Below, piece by piece: positions 8,490 to 38,576 of a stretch of 64,000 nucleotides of DNA. The stretch is from Acetomicrobium sp. S15 = DSM 107314 (GTDB lineage Bacteria > Synergistota > Synergistia > Synergistales > Thermosynergistaceae), in NCBI RefSeq assembly GCF_016125955.1, contig NZ_JADEVE010000184.1, positions 1-64,000 on the forward strand, written 5' to 3'. A program made the position numbers and the translations under genes. The notes below the pieces were generated by a model, which was given only the letters and a program-made list of their open reading frames with translations, was not told the origin of the DNA and ran no database searches. Every line of letters starts with the position of its first letter. The first letter of the stretch is position 1.

Positions 8490-10010
8490 TTACTCCTCCT
8501 TTTCTGAAGTTGCAGAATCTTTTTCTTGTTTAGCATTTTCTCTCAAATAGCTATTCATTGCATAAATTGCAAGTAAGGTTTTGACTCTTACCCAAGGCAC
8601 ACCGGAGATACGTTCTCCTTTTTCAATGCGAAGCAGAGCTTCCGGGATGGTCATTTCTAAGCGAAATTGTGCATCATTTAATACACGATAAAATTCTTCT
8701 GGTTTTTTCGCGTTGCGTAAAGCATAAAGCAGGCCCATTTCACTATGTTCTTTTGCTGCCTTTCCTAGTGCATAACCGAACCCGGCAAGGGTTCGTTGAA
8801 ACTGCTCATCCATATCAAGCACCTCCCTGAGATAGACATTAAACATATCTAAAGTCCCCATTACCAAAGGTTTTGTGGGGTTTTCCTTAGCACGTACGTC
8901 AAAAATGAATGTTTCCAGAAACGGAAATGGATCTGTAAAATGAAGTATTGCCCAAGCAATCTTATCACGCCATAGTGTTTCTTCTTTTTTATTCTCTTGT
9001 CGAGACACGAACTGTCGGAATATCCATGCTATTTGTTGGGGTGGATTATTTATTTCTTTTCGTTCAAGCTCATTTACCCATTTTTCATAAATTCGATAAA
9101 CGAAATGAAGTTTTGTAAATTCTTTTAACTTCATAAAAAAATGCTGCCCCATTATACCTGTAACTGCATAAAGCGTAATAGGTTGGGGTGGGAGGAAAGA
9201 CATGGAATCTACTTTAAACAAGGAAACCAAGCATTTGTTCGTCTCTTCGGGAACATCCTGAGGATCTGAAATGTATGAAAAAAGCGAAAGCAACAGTCCA
9301 AGGGTTGTTTCATGGATATACAGTCCCCAGAAAGGCAAACGAGGAGTATTGCCGCTCTTATCCCCTTCTATTCTTAAAGGCACAAATACCTCACGATGAA
9401 GTCTTTCCATTGTTCTAAGATCAGAGTGAAAGATAAAAAAGTGAAGCACACTCCTTTGAGCCTTTCCTTGGCCCTTTCTTTGGACCTTCCAAAGCCATCC
9501 TATGTAACCCGCCAGTCCAGCCAATGCACAACGAGCACAAAACTTAAAACCTTGTTTTGAACCTGAATAGAAGTTCCCAAACTTAGATGGTTCTACTATG
9601 AAAGGGAATATCCACATCTTAGCGTCTGTAACAGGAGCCTTTGTTCCACAGATATCGCAAACCCCGGGTGTTTTACTTAAGCTTAAATTAAGGTCAAAAA
9701 CAGGCGGTTGAGTGGGATAAGTTTCTCCGTCGATTTCAACTTTTTCATCAGATTTTCCTGACACTCTAATAAATTGGTTCGTTGGATATTTCCAATTAAC
9801 CTTTTCGTACTCCACGATTTCTTTCTTTTTTTGATCGAAATATTTAGTTTTTCCACCAGTTTTTAGCACTAATTTTTCCGTTAGTTTTTCTAGAATATAA
9901 TCTGAATCATAATCACCCTCTCCAAATTCACAATACAGGGTAACTAACCCGTTATCTATCCAGAAATTACCAGTGGGACTAGATAAATTGATAGACACGC
10001 TGTGACTCAT
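8490..10010 (-). CDS. cst1: Cascade large subunit Cas8 (Cst1, CXXC-CXXC type)
   Basis: This is the large subunit that recognises the PAM in type I-B systems. The 506-residue protein matches the Cst1 (CXXC_CXXC) family. It has an N-terminal domain (INLSSPTGNFWIDNG), then two cysteine pairs, CDICGT near residue 120 and CARCALAG near residue 160, which probably form one zinc site, then a long helical C-terminal part. Start at ATG 10010, behind AGGTGG; a GTG nine bases upstream overlaps that site. The name is by family pattern only, as Cas8 sequences diverge strongly. Confidence 0.87.
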   Translation of the reverse strand: MSHSVSINLSSPTGNFWIDNGLVTLYCEFGEGDYDSDYILEKLTEKLVLKTGGKTKYFDQKKKEIVEYEKVNWKYPTNQFIRVSGKSDEKVEIDGETYPTQPPVFDLNLSLSKTPGVCDICGTKAPVTDAKMWIFPFIVEPSKFGNFYSGSKQGFKFCARCALAGLAGYIGWLWKVQRKGQGKAQRSVLHFFIFHSDLRTMERLHREVFVPLRIEGDKSGNTPRLPFWGLYIHETTLGLLLSLFSYISDPQDVPEETNKCLVSLFKVDSMSFLPPQPITLYAVTGIMGQHFFMKLKEFTKLHFVYRIYEKWVNELERKEINNPPQQIAWIFRQFVSRQENKKEETLWRDKIAWAILHFTDPFPFLETFIFDVRAKENPTKPLVMGTLDMFNVYLREVLDMDEQFQRTLAGFGYALGKAAKEHSEMGLLYALRNAKKPEEFYRVLNDAQFRLEMTIPEALLRIEKGERISGVPWVRVKTLLAIYAMNSYLRENAKQEKDSATSEKEE

Positions 10011-10081
10011 TATATCCACCTGCTTTAACTATGACATTTAGTTTCTAATGTTTTTGGTTTTCAAAAAACATCCCGCTTAAA

Positions 10082-10825
10082 TCAAACTGTCTTAATCATC
10101 CCAAACCCCTGACTGTTTTTAGCTCCCAAACCGGCATCATAGGCGAGGTAGAAGAAGTCTTCTGGCAGGTCTAATTCATAGACTCCTGTCCAACCTTTGA
10201 TCACGGTGTCGCGATATTTCACAATTCTTAAGTCTTGTTTGCCTACGCGAATCGGTTTAATCCGTGCCCCTTTTAAGTATTCTGGGTTTTTGGGGCCTAA
10301 ACCCAGTGCCTGACTTTTTCGCCACAGATTTGTGAGGACTTGGATTTCCCAATCTTGTTCTGTTGGGCTGTAGTAATAAGTCTTTTTGCGCCCATCACCC
10401 ATTGTCAGAGTGCTATAGACCGTAATGGGCGAAAGCGCTTTGAATTTTATTGGTCGAGCTAACTTTGGCCTTTCTTCTACTTCTATTCGTATAAGTTCAC
10501 ATAGGTTACCTTCTAATTGCATTTGCCCTTCCACGAGGAGATGTTTTACCATCGATTCTAAAAGGTTTTCATGGACTGAAGATATATATATTTTGGCAGG
10601 GCCCGTAAACTCAATGTTTTTGTCATTCATCATGTATCTTCCGGTTATGCGGCTAAAGGTGAAGAAACGGAACTGTCGTTTCTCAAAAGGCGTACCTTCG
10701 TTGTGGAGGTGGTCTGAAATAGCTCGATCGATGTGGTTGTAGATAAAACCTTGTATTATGCTATTATAGTGAATGGGGAGTATAAGCTTCCCCGCTGTAG
10801 GAGCAAATTCTAACGCTATCCTCAT
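10082..10825 (-). CDS. cas6: CRISPR RNA endonuclease Cas6
   Basis: Cas6 cleaves the precursor crRNA within each repeat. The 247-residue protein shows the duplicated ferredoxin-like fold expected of Cas6 and the diagnostic C-terminal glycine-rich loop GLGAKNSQGFGMIK. The N-terminus (MRIALEFAP...LPIHYNSIIQGFIY) is typical of the family, with a His at about residue 20 that could be catalytic. The start at 10825 follows GGGAGGTGA. It is the first gene of the cas operon, about 160 bases downstream of the predicted transcription start. Confidence 0.94.
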   Translation of the reverse strand: MRIALEFAPTAGKLILPIHYNSIIQGFIYNHIDRAISDHLHNEGTPFEKRQFRFFTFSRITGRYMMNDKNIEFTGPAKIYISSVHENLLESMVKHLLVEGQMQLEGNLCELIRIEVEERPKLARPIKFKALSPITVYSTLTMGDGRKKTYYYSPTEQDWEIQVLTNLWRKSQALGLGPKNPEYLKGARIKPIRVGKQDLRIVKYRDTVIKGWTGVYELDLPEDFFYLAYDAGLGAKNSQGFGMIKTV

Positions 10826-11172
10826 ATTTTCTTTATCACCTCCCAGATAAAGCACGCCATTTTTGCGAAAACGCGCTTAGTCGGAGCATCAAAGACTCCG
10901 AAGACTTTACTGCAACCTCGACACTTATGACCACCTATGCCTTTGTGTCGTTCGGCCACCTCAGGCAAAACATGAGCAGGCTGTAGAAAAATCATAACAT
11001 CGTAGTAGAATGAAAGCAATAGTTCGACGGTTTTTTGTCGGTTTTGATGAAACCGAGCGGCAGTTGATGGCGCTTAGCGGTGCATGTCGTCGCAGGTGTC
11101 CAAAACATGGCGGTAGATGAGGTTTGATGTAACATAAGGAGACATCGAGCCACAGCAATGGGAGTGGTTTTT
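10826..11172. other. Intergenic region between cas6 and the nuclease gene
   Basis: This 347-bp gap holds the cas promoter and cas 5' leader on the minus strand. The rest (about 11020-11160) has no convincing gene on either strand. No clear promoter for the rightward nuclease gene was recognised, though TTGATG near 11130 could be a weak -35. Confidence 0.5.
10991..11019 (-). promoter_or_regulatory. cas operon promoter
   Basis: On the minus strand TTGCTT (11019-11014) and TATGAT (10996-10991) are 17 bp apart, upstream of cas6. The predicted start near 10984 gives a 5' leader of about 160 nt. That leader contains a small hairpin, TCGGAG (9-nt loop) CTCCGA, and a short frame that runs into the cas6 start codon. 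Confidence 0.75.
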
Positions 11173-28542: not shown

Positions 28543-29838
28543 TCAGTTGATAAATCCCGTTAGGCGTGGAAGAAGGAGAATTAAATCAGGTATGTAAGTA
28601 ATGAGGAAAACGGCGACCATTTCGGCCATTACAAAAGGCATTGCCTTCGGGATAATTTTTTCTAAAGAAACCTTCGCAATAGGGCTTACGGTAAAAAGAC
28701 ACACGCCGACCGGAGGCGTGGCAAGGCCTACGTTCAGGTTAACCAGCATGACGAGAGCGAAGTGAAGAGGGTGTATACCAAAACTGATGGCCACGGGAAG
28801 GAGTATCGGAGCCAATAAGATTACGCTAGCTCCTGTCTCCATAATCATTCCCATGAAAAAAAGCAGTATATTAACAATCAATAAAAAAATATATTTATTG
28901 GGGACTACGGTGGTCATGACTTGTGCAATATGTTCAGGGATTCTTTCAAGTGTAAGAACCATACTAAAAACTTGACTTGTAGAAATGATAAAGAGAATAG
29001 TTGCAGAGACTATACCGGCTCCGATAAGGCTATCTATCATATTTTTTGCTGTGAGGGCACGGTAATAAAAGATTCCCACTAAAAAAGCATAAAAACATGC
29101 TATGGCTGCTGCCTCTGTAGGCGTAAACATGCCTGACAAAATACCTCCGATAATTATAATGGGCACGAGAAGGGCAACCAGAGAACGCTTGATTATTTGC
29201 ATTGCTTCTTTTCTTTCGATCCGTTCCGTCCTTTTGGGGTGGTTGTTTTTGACGGCGTAGTAGTAGGCCAAGACCATCAAAGAGGCGGCTACCAAAAGAC
29301 CGGGGATAAATCCGCCCATAAAGAGGGCCCCCACCGATTCGCCCGTCACAGATGAGTAGATGACCATGATAATGCTTGGGGGAATAATGGGCCCGATGAT
29401 CGACGATGTGGCCGTTACCGCCGCTGAATATTCTGGAGAGTATCCCTCTTCTACCATCGCGGGCACGAGTATGGACCCTATGGCGGCCGTATCTGCCACT
29501 GCCGCGCCGGTGAGGCCCGCGAAGATAATGCTAACCACGATGTTGACCTGCGCCAAGGCACCTCGCACACGGCCCACCAAAAGCCGAGCGAGGTTTACGA
29601 GGTCTTTTGTGATTCCGGTGTGGTTCATAAGGTTTCCGGCTAAGATAAAAAATGGAAGGGCAAGAAGTGTGTAGTTGTCTATGCCGCCGTACAACCTCGA
29701 TGCGATGGCGACAAGAGGAATCCCTCGAAAGAAAATAAGATAAAGCAGGGGAACCAACCCGAGGACGAATGCGATCGGAATGCCGATTACGAGAGCCCCT
29801 ACAAAAACAAAAGTCATAAAAAGTAACCCGGCATTCAT
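28543..29838 (-). CDS. dctM: TRAP transporter large permease (DctM)
   Basis: This 431-residue integral membrane protein is the 12-helix ion-coupled subunit of a tripartite TRAP importer. Typical DctM segments are LALPFFILAGNLMNHTGI, AALGSIL-like ADTAAIGSILVPAMVEEGY, IIGPIIPPSIIMVIYSSVTGESVGALFMGGFIPG, GGILSGMFTPTEAAAIACFYA and VNLNVGLATPPVGVCLF. It overlaps the dctQ stop by four bases (ATGA). Last gene of the dctP-dctQ-dctM operon, with moderately low GC. Confidence 0.95.
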   Translation of the reverse strand: MNAGLLFMTFVFVGALVIGIPIAFVLGLVPLLYLIFFRGIPLVAIASRLYGGIDNYTLLALPFFILAGNLMNHTGITKDLVNLARLLVGRVRGALAQVNIVVSIIFAGLTGAAVADTAAIGSILVPAMVEEGYSPEYSAAVTATSSIIGPIIPPSIIMVIYSSVTGESVGALFMGGFIPGLLVAASLMVLAYYYAVKNNHPKRTERIERKEAMQIIKRSLVALLVPIIIIGGILSGMFTPTEAAAIACFYAFLVGIFYYRALTAKNMIDSLIGAGIVSATILFIISTSQVFSMVLTLERIPEHIAQVMTTVVPNKYIFLLIVNILLFFMGMIMETGASVILLAPILLPVAISFGIHPLHFALVMLVNLNVGLATPPVGVCLFTVSPIAKVSLEKIIPKAMPFVMAEMVAVFLITYIPDLILLLPRLTGFIN

Positions 29839-30362
29839 TGTTTGATCTCACCTTCTTGTCCGCCGCTAATCATGTAAGGACGGAAATTTTCTTTTTCCCG
29901 CAAGATGCCTGCGAAAAAATATGTCATATGAACGATCATGAAGATAGATCCTAAAGGAAGGTTCATTTTGACCCATATCATAGGAACTCTAAGAATGGCC
30001 CCATATTGTCGGCGCGCGAGAAGCGCAGTTTGAAAAGTATATTTTGTAGTGATGACTAAAAAAACTATGATCGCAATATAACCAACGATAATGGCTATTT
30101 TCATCGTACGTTTGTTCATTTTTAGGAGAAAGTATTCAATGCCGATGTGGTTTTGCACTTTTAACGCCACTGATGCTCCTATATAGGCAATTCCGATAAG
30201 AAACCATCGCATAAGTTCTTCGTTCCAAGAAAGAGCACTGCCCATTATACGGAAGAAAACTCCAACGATTGCTAAAATAGTAACGCCTAAAACGTATGCG
30301 AACATGATCCACTTCGCTATTGTATATGTTAGATCGCTTGCCTTTTTGAGGATGTTAATCAT
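29835..30362 (-). CDS. dctQ: TRAP transporter small permease (DctQ)
   Basis: This 175-residue, four-helix protein is the small membrane subunit of the TRAP system. Recognised by the ALSWNEELMRWFLIGIAYIGASVALKVQNHIGI segment (SWxEExxR...G) and its place between dctP and dctM. ATG at 30362. A hairpin lies in the 111-base gap separating it from dctP. Confidence 0.92.
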   Translation of the reverse strand: MINILKKASDLTYTIAKWIMFAYVLGVTILAIVGVFFRIMGSALSWNEELMRWFLIGIAYIGASVALKVQNHIGIEYFLLKMNKRTMKIAIIVGYIAIIVFLVITTKYTFQTALLARRQYGAILRVPMIWVKMNLPLGSIFMIVHMTYFFAGILREKENFRPYMISGGQEGEIKQ

Positions 30363-30411
30363 GATAGCGCCTTGATACCACCTTATTAGGGATTTTGTCG
30401 GTCAAAAGGAG

Positions 30412-30441
30412 GGGCAGTCCGCTGTCTCCAACGAACTGCCC
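30412..30441 (-). other. Intercistronic stem-loop between dctP and dctQ (minus-strand operon)
   Basis: Read on the minus strand, GGGCAGTTCG and CGGACTGCCC form a 10-bp stem (one G-U pair) with a 10-nt loop, followed by CTCCTTTTG. Such hairpins protect or partly terminate the dctP message, so that binding protein exceeds permease. Confidence 0.65.
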
Positions 30442-30473
30442 GAGATTTGCTCACAAAGGCCGATCTCGAAAGA

Positions 30474-31604
30474 TCATCGTCTCCAACCAGTTCGGGCTTC
30501 TGCCTTTTTGACCTCGAGCAGGAAGGTGTCAACCACTTCTTTCCCCAACTTGCCTTGGAGATACTCAATAACTGCAGGTTGTGCGAGTTCTCGGAACCGC
30601 TGAATTTCATCAGCGGTTGGGATATATATCTGCATATGTTTGGCAATAATTTCATACTCTACAATATTGGACACCATGCGTTCGGCAACCCTGTCAGCCT
30701 CTGCGCCTAACTTGGCCCCTTGTTTAATAATTTGCTGGGCGGCTATTGGGAGGCTGTTGAATTTGTTGGCGTTCATGACCATGATGTCTTCGCTCCAAAC
30801 GTGTCCATCCAATGTCAAATATTTTTGGACCTCATAAATCTTGCCAAGAGCAATAGGGGCAAGACCGTTTTCGTGACCATCGACTACGCCTGTTTGAAGC
30901 GCAGTATATGTTTCATTCCATGCAATTGGCACAGCGCTAGCACCCAACGATTCAATTAGCTTTACGTAAACAGGACTTTCCATAACGCGAAACTTAAGCC
31001 CTTTGAGGTCTTCGGGTTTGCGGATTTCGCGGACGTTATTGGTGAAATGGCGCCAACCGTTTTGACCGATTGAAAGATATTTGAAGCCCGTTTGTTTTTC
31101 CATCTTGTCCATCAGTTGGGCCCAAAAAGAACTATTATCGAAAAATTCCTCTACAACATCATCTGAAAGGAAAACATATGGAATTGTGATGAGCTGGATG
31201 GGCTCAAAGAAAGACCCTAAAGATCCTGTGCCTATATTTATATCAAGCGACCCATTTTGAACCATTTCAAGAGTTTGTCGATATGTCCCAATGGAACCTC
31301 CTCCAAATAGTTCAACTTTAATTTTCCCGCTCGACGTCCTTTCTACGTAATCTTTGAAAAAGAGAGCATATGCATGTTCGGGATAAGGAACGTTTGAAGA
31401 TTTCGGCCACAACGTTGGATCATCGTAAGCTACCTTAAGGATGATTGGTTTATCAGGGAGAGACATGTCGATCATTGGAGGGATCTCGTTCGCTGTTGCT
31501 TCTTGCGCTTGAGCTTGCCGTGCCTCTTGTCCTGCGACGCAGAAAAAGGTGAACAAAACCAGAATAGCGAGGAGAAGACCAAATTTTCTGAAATAAAATC
31601 GCAT
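30474..31604 (-). CDS. dctP: TRAP transporter solute-binding protein (DctP)
   Basis: This 376-residue periplasmic binding protein starts with a signal peptide (LLLAILVLFTFFCVAGQEARQAQAQ). It has the DctP-family core: IKVELFGGGSIG, MVQNGSLDINIG, GWRHFTNNVREIRKPEDLKGLKFRVMESPVYV and ETYTALQTGVVDGHENG, with the carboxylate-binding Arg expected in FRVMESP. TRAP systems of this type import organic acids; the ligand is unknown. AAGGAGG precedes the ATG. The promoter with an inverted repeat is about 220 bases upstream. Confidence 0.95.
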   Translation of the reverse strand: MRFYFRKFGLLLAILVLFTFFCVAGQEARQAQAQEATANEIPPMIDMSLPDKPIILKVAYDDPTLWPKSSNVPYPEHAYALFFKDYVERTSSGKIKVELFGGGSIGTYRQTLEMVQNGSLDINIGTGSLGSFFEPIQLITIPYVFLSDDVVEEFFDNSSFWAQLMDKMEKQTGFKYLSIGQNGWRHFTNNVREIRKPEDLKGLKFRVMESPVYVKLIESLGASAVPIAWNETYTALQTGVVDGHENGLAPIALGKIYEVQKYLTLDGHVWSEDIMVMNANKFNSLPIAAQQIIKQGAKLGAEADRVAERMVSNIVEYEIIAKHMQIYIPTADEIQRFRELAQPAVIEYLQGKLGKEVVDTFLLEVKKAEARTGWRR

Positions 31605-32000
31605 TTCTACACCCTCCTCCTTTTGGATACATCACATTACACTGTTTTTAGGGGCAACCCCTCTGTCGAAACTCAAAACCTCGCACTATCCAATCTTATT
31701 TTTTTCCATTTCTATATCTGCTTTGCTAATATCACCCCCTGATTACAAACCGATAGCGCATCGAAAATCAGCATTCATCAGTAACTATTTCCCCACGCAA
31801 ACCTTCTCCGACTTCATACAAAACATAGGTTGTATCCGTGAGTTTGTCAATACCTCGTCTTCAATTTATACAATATAGACTATAGCTTGCAAAAGGAAGC
31901 GCAAGGGAAGTGGCCTTCTCTGGGCGCATTGTCACTGCATCCGTGATAAAATTTAAAAGCATATGCGTATGACAATGAACTCGACGAGGAGGAATAGGCG
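31605..32000. other. Divergent intergenic region between dctP and the flavin reductase gene
   Basis: This region holds the dctP promoter/operator and an AT-rich 5' leader of about 210 nt. No gene is supported. The flavin reductase promoter was not clear: TTGTCA at 31929 has no good -10 at the right distance. Confidence 0.5.
31816..31850 (-). promoter_or_regulatory. dctP operon promoter with overlapping inverted-repeat operator
   Basis: On the minus strand TTGACA (31850-31845), 17 bp, then TATGTT (31827-31822). The -10 box lies inside an inverted repeat, ATACAA (31816-31821), N8, TTGTAT (31830-31835). The same half-sites form the palindrome TTGTATACAA at 32904-32913, in front of the GntR-type regulator. 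The arrangement suggests repression by that regulator. Confidence 0.7.
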
Positions 32001-32531
32001 ATGAAAAAACAGCTTGCGCCCCAAACTTTGCTGTACCCTGTTCCGGTCGTGTTGGCCACATCAGGCGATTTCAACGGTCGCAAAAACATCATTACCTTGG
32101 CCTGGGCTGGCGTAGTGAATTCTGAACCGCCTATGGTGGGCATAAGCGTTCGCCCCGCCCGTTACTCTCACGATCTCATCGCACAAGCGAGAGAATTCGT
32201 AATCAATGTCCCTAAGGCCGACCATCTCGAGGCTGTAAAGCTCTGCGGGAGTGCCTCCGGAAGGACAACCGATAAATTCGCGGCTACCGGCTTATCCGCT
32301 GTGCCCGCAACCGAGGTGAAAGCTCCCCTCATCGCGGAGTGCCCCGTGAACCTGGAGTGCCGGGTAAAGCAGGTCATAAGCCTGGGGAGCCATGATCTCT
32401 TTTTGGGGGAAATCGTGGCGGTGCATGTATCTCAAGAAGTCTTAGACGAAAGAGGGCAGATCGACCCTGCGAAGGCTCACCCGCTTGCTTACTGCCAGGG
32501 AAATTTCTGGCATGGCGCAGATATGCTTTAG
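32001..32531 (+). CDS. Flavin reductase-domain protein (flavoredoxin-like)
   Basis: This 176-residue protein has the FMN-binding split-barrel fold of the flavin reductase/flavoredoxin family: LLYPVPVVLATSGDFNGRKNIITLAWAGVVNSEPPMVGISVRPARYSHDLI followed by FVINVP and the C-terminal HPLAYCQGNFW. Such proteins bind FMN and act in electron transfer or flavin reduction in anaerobes. ATG follows GAGGAGGAA. It is a single gene ended by a stem-loop. Confidence 0.85.
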   Translation: MKKQLAPQTLLYPVPVVLATSGDFNGRKNIITLAWAGVVNSEPPMVGISVRPARYSHDLIAQAREFVINVPKADHLEAVKLCGSASGRTTDKFAATGLSAVPATEVKAPLIAECPVNLECRVKQVISLGSHDLFLGEIVAVHVSQEVLDERGQIDPAKAHPLAYCQGNFWHGADML

Positions 32532-32545
32532 CCATTTGCCGCAAT

Positions 32546-32575
32546 AGACCGAAGCGCTGCGGTGCGCTTCGGTCT
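32546..32575 (+). terminator. Stem-loop after the flavin reductase gene
   Basis: AGACCGAAGCG (32546-32556) and CGCTTCGGTCT (32565-32575) form a perfect 11-bp GC-rich stem with an 8-nt loop, 14 bases after the stop. There is no immediate T-run. Confidence 0.7.
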
Positions 32576-32839
32576 CAGGTCGTTGGCCCAGCTTTTGTGT
32601 GCACAATCGTGCCTTGCCTTGCCTCGATCGTGCAGATAGTTTAATTCCCTTCTCGCAAATTCAGAAAAACACAGAAAGCCCATGCGAAGCGACAGGGTCG
32701 TGGGTTGCAGCTTAGGTGTTGCATGCCTATGTGCATCGCACATTCCTATTTGGTTTTGACCAAGACTCAAAAACCTTTGCCTTTCTGTGCTTGGTCATTA
32801 ACGAAATCGAAGCAGAGAGATAAACTATCCTCCTGACAC

Positions 32840-32868
32840 TTGACAAACCAAATTTTTGGTGGTAAGTT
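32840..32868 (+). promoter_or_regulatory. Candidate promoter of the GntR-E1-TRAP operon
   Basis: TTGACA (32840-32845) is followed after 17 bp by TAAGTT (32863-32868). The spacer contains a small palindrome, ACCAAA-TT-TTTGGT. A second -10-like TATGAT at 32896-32901, with TTGCGC 19 bp upstream, is an alternative nearer the gene. Confidence 0.5.
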
Positions 32869-32903
32869 ATTTGCGCTATGATTGCATACCAGTAGTATGA
32901 TGG

Positions 32904-32913
32904 TTGTATACAA
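32904..32913. promoter_or_regulatory. Palindromic operator for the GntR-type regulator
   Basis: TTGTATACAA is a perfect 10-bp palindrome of the form typical for FadR/FCD-subfamily GntR regulators. It lies directly before the ribosome-binding site of the regulator gene, which suggests autoregulation. Confidence 0.6.
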
Positions 32914-32930: not shown

Positions 32931-33563
32931 ATGTGCGGAAAAACAAAGAAGGATTTGGCTTACGAAGAGATAAAACGACTCATACTCGATGGCAAACTTT
33001 CTGGCGACATGACCATATCGGAGAATGTTCTGGCGGATATGCTGGGCGTAAGCCGGACCCCCGTAAGGGACGCCCTAAGGCGCTTGGAGATGGACGGGTT
33101 CGTTAGGGTCATACCAAATCAGGGTGTGGTGATCCGCGAGGTTTCCATAAGCGAGGTCAAGGAGATTTACGACATGCGCATAGCCTTGGAGGAGTTCGTG
33201 GTGAGGGAGCTTGCCGATGGACTTTCCGACGAAGACTTTCGCAACTTAGAGGCGATCCTTAAAAAGCAGGAGGAGGCGTGCAAAAAGAGGGATGCCGTGG
33301 CTTTCCACGAGGAAGATCGCAGATTTCACGACTACCTCATGAGGGCCTACGGCAATGCGATGATAACCAATTTCATATCGAGGCTTCGAGATCGCATAGA
33401 GGGCATCAACGTGAACATGCTCAAAATGCCTGGGAATATGCAGCTATTTTATGGCGAACACAAAAGGATTTTCGAGGCCTTGCGCAGGAGAAGCGGGGAA
33501 GAGGCCGCCAAGGAGATGGACGAGCATCTGAAGGGCGGGAAGATGAGGTTGATCGCGAGCTGA
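32931..33563 (+). CDS. GntR-family (FCD) transcriptional regulator
   Basis: This 210-residue regulator has an N-terminal winged helix (about residues 8-70; ISENVLADMLGVSRTPVRDALRRLEMDGFV) and a C-terminal FCD ligand domain with the metal/ligand histidine pattern in EEDRRFHDYLMRAYGN and EHKRIFEALRRR. Start ATG 32931 behind GGGGTGAGG; a TTG in the palindrome at 32904 is rejected. It heads the E1alpha-E1beta-TRAP genes and presumably senses the acid they import or degrade. Confidence 0.92.
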   Translation: MCGKTKKDLAYEEIKRLILDGKLSGDMTISENVLADMLGVSRTPVRDALRRLEMDGFVRVIPNQGVVIREVSISEVKEIYDMRIALEEFVVRELADGLSDEDFRNLEAILKKQEEACKKRDAVAFHEEDRRFHDYLMRAYGNAMITNFISRLRDRIEGINVNMLKMPGNMQLFYGEHKRIFEALRRRSGEEAAKEMDEHLKGGKMRLIAS

Positions 33564-33605
33564 TCTTGAAAGTTGGACGTCGTAGAAAGCAAAAGGAGGC
33601 GTTCG

Positions 33606-34574
33606 TTGGTGGTCGGTTGGGATGAAGAGCTGTTGTGTCGCTTTTACAGGACGATGGTAACCATCAGGTTCTTCGAGCAGACAGTGGAAAAGCATTTCCT
33701 CGCCGGCGAGATACCAGGGTTTGTGCACCTTTACATAGGCGAGGAAGCTATCGCGACGGGCGTGTGTGCTAACCTCACCACAGATGATTACATAGCCAGC
33801 ACACACAGGGGGCATGGCCATTCTATAGCCAAGGGAGCCGACGTAAGCAGGATGATGGCCGAGATATTCGGTAGAAAGACGGGGTATTGCAAGGGCAAAG
33901 GGGGATCTATGCACATAGCCGATTTCAGCGTAGGGATGCTCGGCGCTAACGGAGTTGTAGGTGGCAGTTTGCCTTTAGCGACAGGGGCGGCCTTAGCTGC
34001 GAAGATGCTCAGGCAAAAGAGGGTTGCCGTGGCCTTTTTTGGCGATGGCGCCTCAAACCGCGGGACGTTTCACGAATCTGCTAACTTAGCCAGCGTTTGG
34101 AAACTTCCGGTGATATTTTTGTGCGAAAACAACCAATATGCCTCGACCACTCCCTATAGGAGCAGCACATCGGTAGAAGACATAGCCGACAGGGCACGCG
34201 GATATGGCATGCCGGGCGTCATTGTCGATGGAAATGACGTGTTTGCGGTATATGAGGCTGCAAAAGCCGCTGTGGAGAGGGCAAGAGGCGGCGGCGGTCC
34301 GTCTCTCGTAGAGGCCAAGACATATCGCATCAAAGGGCATTTCGTGGGGGACCCGGAGCTTTATCGCTCCAAGGAAGAGGTGCAGGAAATCTTTGCGAAG
34401 ACAGACCCTATTTCCCGTTTTGAAAGGCAAGTGTCGAGCGAAGGCTCGCTTAGCCGAGAAAAGCTTGATAGCATTAAGCTTGAGGTGCAGGAGCTGATTG
34501 ACAAAGCGCTCGCCTTTGCCAAAGAGAGCCCAGAGCCGGATCCCTCTGAGCTGTTTAGCGATGTGTACGCGTAG
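33606..34574 (+). CDS. TPP-dependent 2-oxo acid/acetoin dehydrogenase E1, alpha subunit
   Basis: This 323-residue alpha subunit of a pyruvate/acetoin dehydrogenase-type E1 resembles AcoA/PdhA. Features: EQTVEKHFLAGEIPGFVHLYIGEEAIATG, STHRGHGHSIAKG, GYCKGKGGSMH and the TPP-binding motif FFGDGASNRGTFHESANLASVWKLPVIFLCENN (GDG...NN). TTG 33606 is chosen for its six-base spacing from AAAAGGAGG; GTG 33609 is equally possible. It lies between the GntR gene and the beta subunit. No E2 or E3 gene follows. Confidence 0.9.
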   Translation: MVVGWDEELLCRFYRTMVTIRFFEQTVEKHFLAGEIPGFVHLYIGEEAIATGVCANLTTDDYIASTHRGHGHSIAKGADVSRMMAEIFGRKTGYCKGKGGSMHIADFSVGMLGANGVVGGSLPLATGAALAAKMLRQKRVAVAFFGDGASNRGTFHESANLASVWKLPVIFLCENNQYASTTPYRSSTSVEDIADRARGYGMPGVIVDGNDVFAVYEAAKAAVERARGGGGPSLVEAKTYRIKGHFVGDPELYRSKEEVQEIFAKTDPISRFERQVSSEGSLSREKLDSIKLEVQELIDKALAFAKESPEPDPSELFSDVYA

Positions 34575-34586
34575 GGGATGAATGCC

Positions 34587-35558
34587 ATGAGAGAGATTAC
34601 ATTCGCTCAAGCCACGCTTGAGGCAATGGAAGAAGAAATGACCCGAGATGAGCGCGTCTTCGTCATGGGAGAAGACATCGCACGTCAAGGGGGCATATTC
34701 GGCCAGTTTAAGGGATTGCCGCAGAAGTTCGGATTGGATCGCGTCAAAGATACGCCCATTTCAGAAACGGCTATCGTAGGGGCTGGAGTGGGTGCGGCCC
34801 TCGGAGGCATGAGGCCAGTGGTTGACATGCACTTCGCTGACTTCATGGGTGTGGCCATGGACGAGCTCTTTAATCAAATGGCCAAGATACACTTCATGTT
34901 CGGCGGACAAAGGCCCGTGCCTGTAGTAGTACGCGCCCCAGACGGTCTCACCAACCAGGCCGCTGCTCAGCACTCCCAATCCATAGAGGCCTGGTTTTTG
35001 CACATACCGGGCCTGAAGGTGGTTATCCCTTCAAACCCGGCAGATGCCAAAGGGCTTTTGAAGTCTGCGATCCGCGACGACAACCCAGTCATATACTTCG
35101 AGCACAAGAGGCTGTTCCCCGTAAAAGGCCCTGTTCCTGACGGAGAGGTCCTCGTTCCCATAGGAAAAGCTGCCGTTACAAAACCGGGCAAAGATATTAC
35201 CATCGTTTCATACTCGTACACGATGAGAGTCGTCATGGATGCCGTCTCCATACTGGAGAAGGATGGAATTGACCCTGAGGTTATAGACCTGCGGACGATC
35301 TCTCCTATAGATAAAGATACAATCTTAAATTCCGTAGCGAAGACGAGGAAACTTGCAATAGCCCACGAGGCTGTAAAACAAGGTGGTGTCGGGGCTGAAA
35401 TTGCAGCTATCGTAGCGGAAGAGGGGCTTGATTATCTGGATGCCCCTGTATTGCGCTTCGGTGCACCTTTCACGCCCGTGCCGTTTGCCAGGACGTTGGA
35501 AGCGGCATATAGGGTAAAGGCGGAAGATATCTATTCTGGAATTAGAGCATTATTTTAA
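34587..35558 (+). CDS. TPP-dependent 2-oxo acid/acetoin dehydrogenase E1, beta subunit
   Basis: This 323-residue transketolase-like beta subunit pairs with the preceding alpha subunit. It has REITFAQATLEAMEEEM, the FVMGEDIARQGGIFG segment, RVKDTPISETAIVGAGVGAALGG with the catalytic-type Glu, and the C-terminal transketolase domain DLRTISPIDKDTI. ATG 34587 is preferred to ATG 34578 for its distance from GTAGGGGA. The usual lipoyl E2 and FAD E3 genes are replaced here by a TRAP transporter. Confidence 0.9.
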   Translation: MREITFAQATLEAMEEEMTRDERVFVMGEDIARQGGIFGQFKGLPQKFGLDRVKDTPISETAIVGAGVGAALGGMRPVVDMHFADFMGVAMDELFNQMAKIHFMFGGQRPVPVVVRAPDGLTNQAAAQHSQSIEAWFLHIPGLKVVIPSNPADAKGLLKSAIRDDNPVIYFEHKRLFPVKGPVPDGEVLVPIGKAAVTKPGKDITIVSYSYTMRVVMDAVSILEKDGIDPEVIDLRTISPIDKDTILNSVAKTRKLAIAHEAVKQGGVGAEIAAIVAEEGLDYLDAPVLRFGAPFTPVPFARTLEAAYRVKAEDIYSGIRALF

Positions 35559-35671
35559 TTAAATGCTTGAGGAGGTGGTAACGAGAAGAAAAGAGACACT
35601 TCGCTGCGATGGGAAGTTTCAAAAAATGTCAGAGGGAGGTGAATTGTCCGGCTATAGTCGGACGTAAAGCG

Positions 35672-36688
35672 ATGAAAAAGGTGCTGTGTGGGATTTTAGC
35701 GTTGGCGTTACTTTTTGGGGTGGCAGGGCTTGATAGGGCGTCCGCCGCGGCGCTCAAGAATGAGTATAAGCTCACGATGAACGTCTCCACCGATACTGCG
35801 TGGGGCAAGGGTGGCGTGAAGTTCGCTGAACTCGTGAAGGAGTACACTGGAGGCAAAGTCAACGTAAAGGTATACCCCAACGCTCAGCTCGTGGGCGGTG
35901 ACCAGATGCGCCAGGCGGAGATGGTCTCAAGCGGCGCTATAGACTTCATGCTAAACTCTACCATCAACATCGCTCCCATAATTCCGGAATGCAACGCCTT
36001 CTCTCTCCCCTTCATGTTCCCGAGTTACGAAGCTGTGGATGCCGTTACTAAATCCGCTGGCGGAGAAATGGTTCTTAAGGCTCTCGAAAAGCACAACATG
36101 GTAGGCCTCGGTTGGGGTGAAAACGGCTTCCGCGAGCTCACGAACAATGTGCGTCCAGTAGCGCACCCGGATGACTTGAAGGGCTTAAAGATAAGGGTCG
36201 TCACGCCGATCTATGTTGATATCATGAGAGCCCTGGGGGCCAACGCCATCGCTATGAACTGGGGCGAAGTCTTCACCGCGTTGCAACAGGGCGTCATCGA
36301 CGGACAGGAAAACCCCATCGTTGGGATCATCATACCTAACAAGATTTATGAAGTGCAGAAATACCTCACCAACTGGCACTATTCCTACGACGCGCTCATT
36401 TTGGCCGTGAACAAGCAGGTCTGGGCTGGCTTCGACCCTGAGGTTCAAGAGCAGATCAAAAAAGCTGCTGCAGATGCTATGCGCTGGCAGATCTATGACG
36501 TGAGCCGCGTGGGCTTGAAGGATGGCATAGAATTCCTCAAGTCCAAGGGCATGGTCGTCACCGATCCTACGCCAGAGCAGTTGGCCGCGTTCCGTGAGCG
36601 CACAAAAGCCGTTTACGATAAGTGGGTGCAGAACGTAGGGCCGGACATAGTAAAGGCCTTTGAGGAAGCTGTGGCCAGCTACAAGTAG
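35672..36688 (+). CDS. dctP: TRAP transporter solute-binding protein (DctP), second system
   Basis: This 338-residue binding protein has a signal peptide (MKKVLCGILALALLFGVAGLDRASA) and the full DctP core: VKVYPNAQLVGGDQMRQAEMVSSGAIDFM, GWGENGFRELTNNVRPVAHPDDLKGLKIRVVTPIYVDIM and GEVFTALQQGVIDGQENP. The start at 35672 is chosen for the signal peptide. The only good ribosome-binding site lies upstream, before a small stem-loop (35646-35663, GTCCG/CGGAC) that abuts the start and may modulate translation. It follows the E1 genes, so its ligand is probably their substrate or precursor. Confidence 0.92.
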   Translation: MKKVLCGILALALLFGVAGLDRASAAALKNEYKLTMNVSTDTAWGKGGVKFAELVKEYTGGKVNVKVYPNAQLVGGDQMRQAEMVSSGAIDFMLNSTINIAPIIPECNAFSLPFMFPSYEAVDAVTKSAGGEMVLKALEKHNMVGLGWGENGFRELTNNVRPVAHPDDLKGLKIRVVTPIYVDIMRALGANAIAMNWGEVFTALQQGVIDGQENPIVGIIIPNKIYEVQKYLTNWHYSYDALILAVNKQVWAGFDPEVQEQIKKAAADAMRWQIYDVSRVGLKDGIEFLKSKGMVVTDPTPEQLAAFRERTKAVYDKWVQNVGPDIVKAFEEAVASYK

Positions 36689-36697
36689 GGCTATGCG

Positions 36698-36726
36698 AGG
36701 GGAGTTGCCTTTGTGGCGGCTCCCCT
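36698..36726 (+). other. Intercistronic stem-loop between dctP and dctQ (plus-strand operon)
   Basis: AGGGGAGTTGCC (36698-36709) pairs with GGCGGCTCCCCT (36715-36726), including two G-U pairs, around a 5-nt loop. It stands ten bases after dctP. Like the hairpin at 30412, it probably raises dctP mRNA level relative to the permease genes. Confidence 0.65.
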
Positions 36727-36783
36727 GTTCCCGTTTAACGGCTCGGTGTGATTGTGCGCCGGGAGAAGGGGTGATGTTGGGGC

Positions 36784-37293
36784 ATGCTTAGATTTCTTGA
36801 CAAGGCCGAAGAGTGGACGTGTGCCGTCATGCTCTTTTTCATGGCCATTTTAGCTTTTATTAACGTGATCGTAAGATACCTTACAACCTTTTCTTTCTCC
36901 TTCTCAGAGGAGCTCTTGGTCAACTTGTTTGTATGGATCACGATGCTTGGAGCATCTATAGCTACGCGGAAGGGAGCGCTTTTGGGCGTCACTTTTTTGG
37001 TCGACCGGCTGTCTACAGGGCTCAAAAAGGTTGCGTCTTTAGCGGTCACTCTTTGCGGCGTAATCCTATTTCTACTCCTTGCGCTTCACGGCGTGGATAT
37101 GGTGAGGTCGGAATACAGGTCTGGAATGACCACCTACTCTATGGCTCTTCCTATGTGGATATTCGGCCTCGCCGTGCCGGTGTGCGCGTTTCTGCTGATA
37201 GCGAGGACTATTCAGAGAGGCATAGATGAATGGAAGGCCCTTTCTTCGGATGTGCCCGAAGTTGAGCCCGATGTGGAGGTGAAGCCGAAGTGA
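36784..37293 (+). CDS. dctQ: TRAP transporter small permease (DctQ), second system
   Basis: This 169-residue protein has four membrane segments and the DctQ signature SFSEELLVNLFVWITMLGASIATRKGALLG. Located between dctP and dctM. Its stop codon overlaps the GTG start of dctM. Confidence 0.92.
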   Translation: MLRFLDKAEEWTCAVMLFFMAILAFINVIVRYLTTFSFSFSEELLVNLFVWITMLGASIATRKGALLGVTFLVDRLSTGLKKVASLAVTLCGVILFLLLALHGVDMVRSEYRSGMTTYSMALPMWIFGLAVPVCAFLLIARTIQRGIDEWKALSSDVPEVEPDVEVKPK

Positions 37294-38576
37294 ACATAGA
37301 TCCCGGTGTAGTATTGTTAGGCCTTTTCTTCGTCATGATCGCCTTTAAGGTCCCTATAGCGATAGCCTTAGGCCTGGCAGGGATGGCCGTCGTGTATTGG
37401 TTTAACCTGGGTGCCCAGATGTTCGCCCCCGTATTCTTCGCCAATATATCGAAATTTTCTCTATTGGCTATCCCCTTTTTCATCCTGGCCGGTGTAATCA
37501 TGGGGAGGGCTAAGATATCGGATAAGATTGTCCACTTGATAATGCTACTTGTGGGCCCGATAAGCGGCGGTATGGCTATCGTGACGGTCATAACTGCGCT
37601 CTTTTGGGGAGCCGTCTCCGGATCGGGACCTGCTACTGTGGCTGCTTTGGGTACCATACTAATCCCCGGCATGGTAAAAGCCGGTTATGACCGAGGTTTT
37701 GCCGCGGCGATTACATCTGCTGCAAGTGGCCTCGCTATCGTGATTCCGCCGAGCATAGGGTTTATCGTCTACGGCGTAATCACGGGCGCCTCAATAAGCG
37801 AATTGTTTCTTGCCGGCATCATACCCGGTATTGTGGTGGGACTCTTTCTCATAGTTGTAGCTTTTATCATCTCAGTGGCTCGTGGGTATAAGGGTGAGCG
37901 GTTCGGTACGGCCCGTGAGGTATTGCACGCTTTCAAAGACGCCTTCTGGGCGCTCATCACTCCGGTCATCATATTGGGTGGCATATATGGAGGAATATTT
38001 ACGCCCACTGAAGCGGCTGCGGTAGGTGTGGTTTACGGCCTCTTTGTGGGCTTCGTGGTGTATAAGACGCTCACTCTCAAGGACTTATACGAGCTATTAG
38101 TGGAGACCTGCGTCTCCTCAGCGGTGGTAATGCTCGTGGTTTCCTTTGCCGGGATCTTTGGATGGGCCATGACGGTTCTGGGCGTGGTGGAGAGGATATC
38201 CCAGGCGGTGATATCGTTGAGTTCTAATCCTTATGTCGTCATAGCCCTCATAAATGGCGTCCTGCTCGTGGCAGGAATGCTCTTGGATGCCATCTCTATA
38301 TATTACTTGCTTCTGCCCATCTTCATGCCGGTGATGGCTCACTTCGGCTGGGATCCGGTTTGGTTCGGCATAGTAATGACAATAAACCTGGCCATAGGAC
38401 AGGTAACGCCGCCGGTGGCGGTCAACCTCTATGTGGGGTGCAATATCGGTGGCGTATCGATGGACGAGATCTCCCGTGCCGTAATCCCCTTCGTTATAGC
38501 CTCGATAGCGGCCTTGGTGGTTATCGTTTACGCTCCCGACGTCACGTTATGGCTTCCGCGGCTCTTGATGCGATAA
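37290..38576 (+). CDS. dctM: TRAP transporter large permease (DctM), second system
   Basis: This 428-residue, 12-helix subunit shows LLAIPFFILAGVIMGRAKI, SGSGPATVAALGTILIPGMVKAGYDRGFAAAITSAASGLAIVIPPSIGFIVYGVITG, IFTPTEAAAVGVVYGL and INLAIGQVTPPVAVNLYVG, all typical of DctM. GTG start in a GTGA overlap with dctQ. Its last 30 bases overlap the 3' end of the HAD gene on the other strand. Last gene of the GntR-E1-TRAP operon. Confidence 0.95.
   Translation: MNIDPGVVLLGLFFVMIAFKVPIAIALGLAGMAVVYWFNLGAQMFAPVFFANISKFSLLAIPFFILAGVIMGRAKISDKIVHLIMLLVGPISGGMAIVTVITALFWGAVSGSGPATVAALGTILIPGMVKAGYDRGFAAAITSAASGLAIVIPPSIGFIVYGVITGASISELFLAGIIPGIVVGLFLIVVAFIISVARGYKGERFGTAREVLHAFKDAFWALITPVIILGGIYGGIFTPTEAAAVGVVYGLFVGFVVYKTLTLKDLYELLVETCVSSAVVMLVVSFAGIFGWAMTVLGVVERISQAVISLSSNPYVVIALINGVLLVAGMLLDAISIYYLLLPIFMPVMAHFGWDPVWFGIVMTINLAIGQVTPPVAVNLYVGCNIGGVSMDEISRAVIPFVIASIAALVVIVYAPDVTLWLPRLLMR

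Follow-up and report, generated by a model that had tools for sequence, protein, structure and literature searches.

A palindrome with an 11-bp series of upstream half-sites as the probable operator of a GntR-type regulator of E1 and TRAP importer genes in the Synergistales

The promoter region of a GntR-family regulatory gene, which heads an operon with E1 alpha, E1 beta and TRAP importer genes, carries a perfect palindrome, TTGTATACAA, at the end of a ladder of TTGTAT-like half-sites set 11 bp apart. We consider it probable, from comparison of sequences, that this combination of a palindrome with a half-site array of one-turn period is the operator of a local autorepressor of the GntR-E1-TRAP operon. 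The ladder itself, its 11-bp period, its conservation, the palindromic end, the position behind the promoter, the near-uniqueness of the pattern and the conserved operon are all directly observed. The result provides a well-defined, conserved candidate operator in a bacterial order that has received little study, for a regulator that has received none. It also corrects the joint regulon proposed in an earlier note on this DNA, in that one substrate family for both TRAP importers should not be assigned on present evidence.

Layout of the operon and of its promoter region

The sequence studied was a 64-kb window on contig C184, the genome being a 2.44-Mb draft; the one named relative to emerge is a member of the Synergistaceae. 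Between 28.5 and 38.6 kb, the window contains a minus-strand TRAP operon (TRAP1), a flavin reductase gene and a plus-strand operon in the order GntR-E1alpha-E1beta-TRAP2. The relevant features are as follows.

28543-31604, minus strand: TRAP importer 1 (DctM, DctQ, DctP), outside the supported regulon
31816-31835, minus strand: ATACAA-N8-TTGTAT over the -10 of the TRAP1 promoter, an exact match, unsupported as an operator of this GntR
32840-32868, plus strand: gntR promoter, with -35 TTGACA at 32840-32845, a 17-bp spacer and a weak -10 TAAGTT at 32863-32868 (read directly and by a looser promoter rule)
32882-32887, plus strand: half-site 1, TTGCAT (one mismatch to TTGTAT), first rung of the 11-bp ladder
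32893-32898, plus strand: half-site 2, TAGTAT (one mismatch to TTGTAT), second rung
32904-32913, plus strand: terminal unit, the perfect palindrome TTGTATACAA, third rung
32931-33563, plus strand: GntR-family FCD (FadR-subfamily) regulator of 210 aa with Pfam GntR and FCD domains, proposed autorepressor
33573-34574, plus strand: E1 alpha subunit of a 2-oxoacid dehydrogenase type enzyme (PF00676, 329 bits), conserved GntR neighbour
34578-35558, plus strand: E1 beta subunit (PF02779 and PF02780), conserved GntR neighbour
35609-38576, plus strand: TRAP importer 2 (DctP 35609-36688, DctQ 36784-37293, DctM 37290-38576), proposed target operon

The palindrome has a TTGTAT half-site as its left arm, and the three rungs (TTGCAT at 32882, TAGTAT at 32893 and TTGTAT at 32904) follow one another in exact 11-bp steps just downstream of the TTGACA-17-TAAGTT promoter, the palindrome lying 17 bp before the GntR ATG at 32931. 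Both of the window's accessory half-sites thus carry one mismatch each. A stricter promoter scan omits the gntR promoter because its -10, TAAGTT, matches at only 3 of 6 positions. The earlier note had described a perfect palindrome before the GntR gene, and this is borne out exactly at 32904-32913; as an account of the whole site it was incomplete, since the palindrome, albeit real and beyond chance, does not stand alone and ends an 11-bp half-site ladder that starts at 32882. TTGTATACAA is the sole perfect palindromic element in the window, and as an exact 10-mer it occurs at only 2 places in the 2.44 Mb (0 in the reversed control). The TTGTAT half-site taken alone is at chance level in the window (26 found, 22.5 expected). 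The other perfect copy of the 10-mer in the genome (G000:C273:197545-197554, L002) is followed closely by a promoter-like sequence and by a gene truncated by the contig end, and no 11-bp ladder was found at that place.

In all of the 11 relatives examined, GntR was adjoined by E1alpha, E1beta and a TRAP importer; the importer near GntR in L039 and L041 is only distantly related (28% DctM identity). E1alpha belonged to the same gene cluster as GntR at 28 of 30 homologous loci (24 directly, with L005, L006, L007 and L009 added from wider neighbourhoods). Genes for E2, E3, lipoyl-synthase-like, ATP-NAD kinase-like and PCC-domain proteins are present nearby in several relatives, which fits a dehydrogenase of the 2-oxoacid or acetoin type. 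For the window's own E1 alpha/beta genes (33573-35558), no E2 or E3 homologue was detected in the window or in the next 20 kb, while relatives carry a complete dehydrogenase cluster; two E2 genes are located elsewhere in the window's genome, on contigs C173 and C415.

The GntR-E1-TRAP2 operon (32931-38576) is 84-92% identical to the operon of G034 (L036), a genome of another family, and the same-genus genome G001 gave no GntR match at E <= 1e-38. Such a patchy distribution suggests that the operon may have been acquired by horizontal transfer. In G034 the operon is followed (L036:2530-9709) by a second E1 alpha/beta pair and by E2, E3, radical-SAM lipoyl-synthase-like, glyoxalase-fold and ATP-NAD kinase-like genes, an arrangement reminiscent of acetoin dehydrogenase clusters. 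Elsewhere in the window (8490-10855), two minus-strand reading frames have translations which, by eye, resemble CRISPR-associated proteins (Cas8-like and Cas6-like).

Conservation and specificity of the half-site array

A homologue search in 180 genomes of the order returned 34 places at E <= 1e-38, of which 30 with loci were used and grouped by upstream similarity into 22 clusters, 21 of them non-window. Outside the order, a plasmid search for relatives gave identities of no more than about 35% among the best 30 of 2163 records, and none were found in viral contigs. A further relative, L033, equals that of G034 in identity and was treated as the same record.

The recurrence of TTGTAT-like hexamers every 11 bp was first seen in the upstream regions of the GntR homologues. 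Across the 21 non-window clusters, 17 TTGTAT-like pairs (at most one mismatch in each hexamer) were counted at a distance of 11 bp, with a shuffle mean of 0.28, as against none at 10 bp and 2 at 12 bp. At least one 11-bp pair (at most two mismatches in total, within 110 bp) was present in 17 of the 22 clusters, or 16 of 21 without the window, whereas shuffling gave a mean of 0.33 of 22 clusters and never more than 4 in 1000 sets. Among the other spacings of 7-25 bp, the most frequent was 22 bp, equal to two steps, in 9 of 22 clusters. Such a pair was lacking in five clusters (L010, L011, the L017 group, L057 and L059); L010, L011 and the L017 group are E1-linked, so that a ladder would be expected there, and L011 does have a pair with three mismatches.

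Two of these exceptions have features of their own. Loci L017-L020, a sister group, carry TGGTAT-like repeats 11 bp apart instead of TTGTAT, some 120-130 bp upstream of GntR, which is possibly a shift of the half-site along with the regulator. At L010 (G043:C22), the GntR promoter region is rearranged relative to the close relatives L049 and L050 and the ladder is lost, reflecting either a real loss or an assembly fault.

Unit tables were compiled from 19 of the 29 non-window loci, after exclusion of the near-copies L015, L016 and L050 and of L010, L017-L020, L057 and L059, which have no array. The terminal unit in these 19 loci reads TTGTAT-R-C-A-A-G, with the C of the right arm kept in 17 of 19 and the next A likewise in 17 of 19, and the penultimate unit consists of a left half-site only, right-arm positions 7-9 holding approximately 0.2-0.3 bit. 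Several relatives carry two exact rungs, and one case has four rungs by a loose two-mismatch rule. Retention of the right arm in the terminal unit alone, next to a preceding unit made of a left half-site only, indicates that the putative operator is one palindrome with one to three direct half-sites on its promoter side.

A simpler arrangement would have TTGTATACAA by itself as the operator and the upstream half-sites as incidental. It would agree with the palindrome being the sole perfect element in the window, and with FadR-subfamily sites being typically single palindromes in the cited portions of PMC4494728. The relatives speak against it, with several having two exact rungs and with an 11-bp upstream half-site as conserved as the palindrome's own left arm, a comparison in which left-arm conservation (but not that of the right arm) is partly selected, because the arrays used for both the matrix and the unit tables had initially been chosen by their TTGTAT pairs. 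We therefore rate the lone palindrome as very unlikely, and retain the palindrome with its half-site array as the probable operator.

All 17 array-bearing clusters, to which the promoter table is confined, have a predicted promoter whose -10 precedes the terminal unit. The distance from the -10 to the start of the terminal unit was 23-27 nt in 10 clusters and 33-39 nt in the other 7, with none between. These two classes are about one turn apart, which suggests that the array may be helically phased to the -10.

The three-rung pattern, with no more than two mismatches, occurs once in the window's genome, at GntR. The sole other match, with three mismatches on contig C36, was considered as a second three-unit array and dismissed, as it reads as coding by eye. 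When 22 genomes were scanned with the same tolerance, all matches fell at GntR promoters except two, namely one in G021, which was discounted as coding sequence by eye, and one in G065, which is a T-rich stretch. The compound pattern TTGTATN5YTGYATRCAR has 18 exact matches across the 180 genomes, and none of the control columns, the reversed control included, has any. Eleven of the 18 lie just before this GntR and 3 beside different FCD GntR genes; the remaining 4 are copies of a single site from four species of the same genus, which falls within a reading frame at the place inspected (L104). The window's own operator fails the exact compound pattern on account of its second rung, TAGTAT. A matrix derived from the relatives only nevertheless ranked the window's site (32893, 21.8 bits) first in the 64 kb, the second-best match (17.8 bits at 9552) being inside a coding frame. 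The proposal of the earlier note that an FCD regulator with TTGTAT half-sites controls its own operon is made very probable by this operator conservation and by the operon being kept in 11 of 11 relatives.

The regulator, related systems and a proposed mode of action

The domain make-up of the regulator is that of the FadR subfamily, with scores of 56 bits for GntR (PF00392, cutoff 27) and 99.5 bits for FCD (PF07729, cutoff 24.3). A palindromic site with TKGT/ACMA boxes, as in the FadR subfamily, is likewise present, as TTGTATACAA in the window and with an RCA right arm in relatives. The phnR_burk model (TIGR03338) gave 144.6 bits, below its cutoff of 271.5. Residues D129, H133, H177 and H199 are near-invariant (kept in at least 95% of 28 E1-linked homologues) and look like the metal-site quartet of FCD domains; on the strength of this pattern, a carboxylate is the likely ligand of the FCD domain.

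Palindromes with extra half-sites have already been described for the FadR subfamily. Suvorova et al. 2015 report, in the portions cited here, GT-N2-AC palindromes with a weaker extra box approximately 7-12 nt from the centre in 13 FadR-subfamily groups, the extra boxes scoring on average about half of true half-sites and their role being left open there (PMC4494728). The same portions describe the sites of the GntR, HypR and UxuR groups, with a 2-nt GT/AC spacing, as palindromes (PMC4494728). TTGTATACAA, with GT-AT-AC, resembles these three groups, and the ladder comes in addition; both the GntR operator proposed here and the published accessory half-sites combine a palindrome with an extra box. 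Unlike the boxes in the cited parts of PMC4494728, the extra half-site at GntR equals the left arm of the palindrome in conservation, is placed towards the promoter in the arrays inspected and can be repeated in up to four 11-bp rungs. TAGTAT has its nearest edge about 10.5 nt and its own centre 13 nt from the palindrome centre, and the 7-12 nt of the published box, as given in those parts, may be measured differently (PMC4494728).

Another alternative would be an operator of the NanR type, composed of pure direct repeats on which offset dimers are joined by a long N-terminal extension. For E. coli NanR, the cited parts of Horne et al. 2021 give an operator of three GGTATA repeats, (GGTATA)3, with steps of less than half a turn, and a measured cooperativity which needs the 32-residue N-terminal extension (PMC8012715). 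As far as those parts go, the two systems have in common an FCD-GntR protein and direct repeats downstream of the RNA polymerase site, with cooperative binding measured for NanR and inferred here (PMC8012715). Direct repeats of a GTAT-containing hexamer do lie just downstream of the gntR promoter, and NanR is the second-best NCBIfam match of the window regulator. This match, however, reaches only 85.8 bits against a cutoff of 260, residue 7 of the window protein aligns with NanR residue 33, so that the 32-residue extension is missing, and the terminal unit of the GntR operator is a palindrome and not a pure direct repeat. NanR further differs, according to the same parts of PMC8012715, in its hexamer, in a repeat distance of less than half a turn as opposed to 11-bp rungs, in serving three operons and in having the extension. 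A NanR-type operator is accordingly very unlikely.

The array at GntR is a variant of the palindromes with extra half-sites mentioned above. The predicted operator works along known lines, and what sets it apart is the full-turn distance of its rungs, the palindrome at its end and a conservation of the accessory half-sites that equals that of the main one. Open-licence papers yielded no description of this operator, whether on direct-repeat FCD operators, on Synergistetes GntR proteins or, judged by the titles of the matches listed, on TTGTATACAA. It offers a clean natural case for the role of accessory half-sites near GntR palindromes, the question left by the cited portions of PMC4494728.

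If the palindrome with its half-site array acts as proposed, this GntR would be the binding protein, and a dimer of it would occupy the palindrome TTGTAT-RCAAG at the end of the array, as is usual in the FadR subfamily. The TTGTAT half-sites one and two turns upstream would then be filled cooperatively by additional protein, in the simplest case by a second (and third) dimer bound to the same face of the helix. As the array is directly downstream of the -10, the bound protein would cover the transcription start and block initiation or escape of RNA polymerase, that is, repress and not activate. Binding of a carboxylate, either imported or formed downstream, to the FCD domain would cause release, upon which gntR, the E1 alpha/beta genes and TRAP importer 2 would be switched on together. 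Two dimers bound to one face with an 11-bp offset may collide. A more far-reaching idea, which we offer tentatively and consider doubtful, is that FCD repressors of the Synergistales have a distinct cooperative mode, in which dimers, nucleated on a single palindrome, would stack along one face with a period of one turn and spread in a polar manner over half-sites only, in the direction of the promoter. This mode would do without the N-terminal extension that NanR needs, and the whole array would be helically phased to the -10.

Half-sites at the TRAP1 promoter

The earlier note had also reported that ATACAA-N8-TTGTAT straddles the -10 of the TRAP1 promoter. The element is indeed exact at 31816-31835 and encloses the -10 of the minus-strand TTGACA-17-TATGTT promoter, with hexamers at 31850-31845 and 31827-31822. 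It had been concluded that one FCD regulator controls both TRAP importers and the E1 genes; for the regulator's own GntR-E1-TRAP2 operon this is supported, while for TRAP1 it is not.

Several observations are compatible with repression of TRAP1 by the same FCD regulator through this element, which would unite both importers in one regulon. The TRAP1 and GntR operons adjoin, the site brackets the -10, and its half-sites are exact copies of a hexamer now independently defined by the relatives. In 20000 shuffles of the 396-bp intergenic region, an everted pair appeared in 0.1% and at least three half-sites in 0.28%, which is nominally unusual locally (P about 0.001-0.003), the P values being nominal because the choice of half-site followed inspection of both promoters, with many promoters available for such inspection. 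The architecture, on the other hand, differs from that of the GntR promoter, as the TRAP1 site contains neither a direct-repeat nor a palindromic unit, and the best score of the relatives-only matrix in the TRAP1 intergenic region is 1.4 bits (21.8 at GntR), near background. The differing spacing of the half-sites had been flagged in the earlier note as a weakness, and rightly so. With up to two mismatches, the TRAP1 pattern occurs 58 times in the genome and 75 times in the reversed control, and exact everted pairs with spacers of N0-20 number 3 in the genome (2 reversed) and 21 when summed over 12 genomes (26 reversed). A common everted-site regulon was discarded on such counts, which are equal to or below the reversed controls, or one above. 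TRAP1 is also absent from all 11 GntR neighbourhoods of the relatives examined. In the 180 genomes, only five TRAP1 homologues besides this one were found at E <= 1e-70, all of them distant (46-48% identity), and the site was absent upstream in the four compared. Control of TRAP1 by this GntR thus appears unlikely, and the further claim that both importers serve one substrate family is likewise unsupported.

The TRAP1 half-sites might instead belong to a different regulator such as FCD2 (contig C273), whose own promoter has everted TTGTAT half-sites in the form GGATACAATA-N15-TATTGTATCC. The genome contains only three exact everted pairs, of which one directly precedes FCD2 and is kept in the same-genus genome G001; one arm of the TRAP1 site also reads GGATACAA. 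The spacing is nonetheless 8 at TRAP1 and 19 at FCD2, the position relative to the promoter differs, and exact everted pairs show no enrichment in the 12-genome count given above. A different regulator of this kind is an improbable owner, and FCD2 was not accepted as the proven one, its half-site being similar and its spacing and placement different. Most likely, the half-sites at TRAP1 are due either to chance or to another regulator.

FCD2 itself is an FCD regulator with 32% identity to the window GntR, and it adjoins a ferredoxin-like gene. The inverted repeat at its own promoter is conserved (G000:C273:151777-151811, L096, and G001:C15:83-113), with one arm forming the -10. In the window, the TRAP1 and flavin-reductase promoters are apparently divergent by eye, with a common -35 region at 31845-31869 (TTGACA on the minus strand and TTGTCA on the plus strand).
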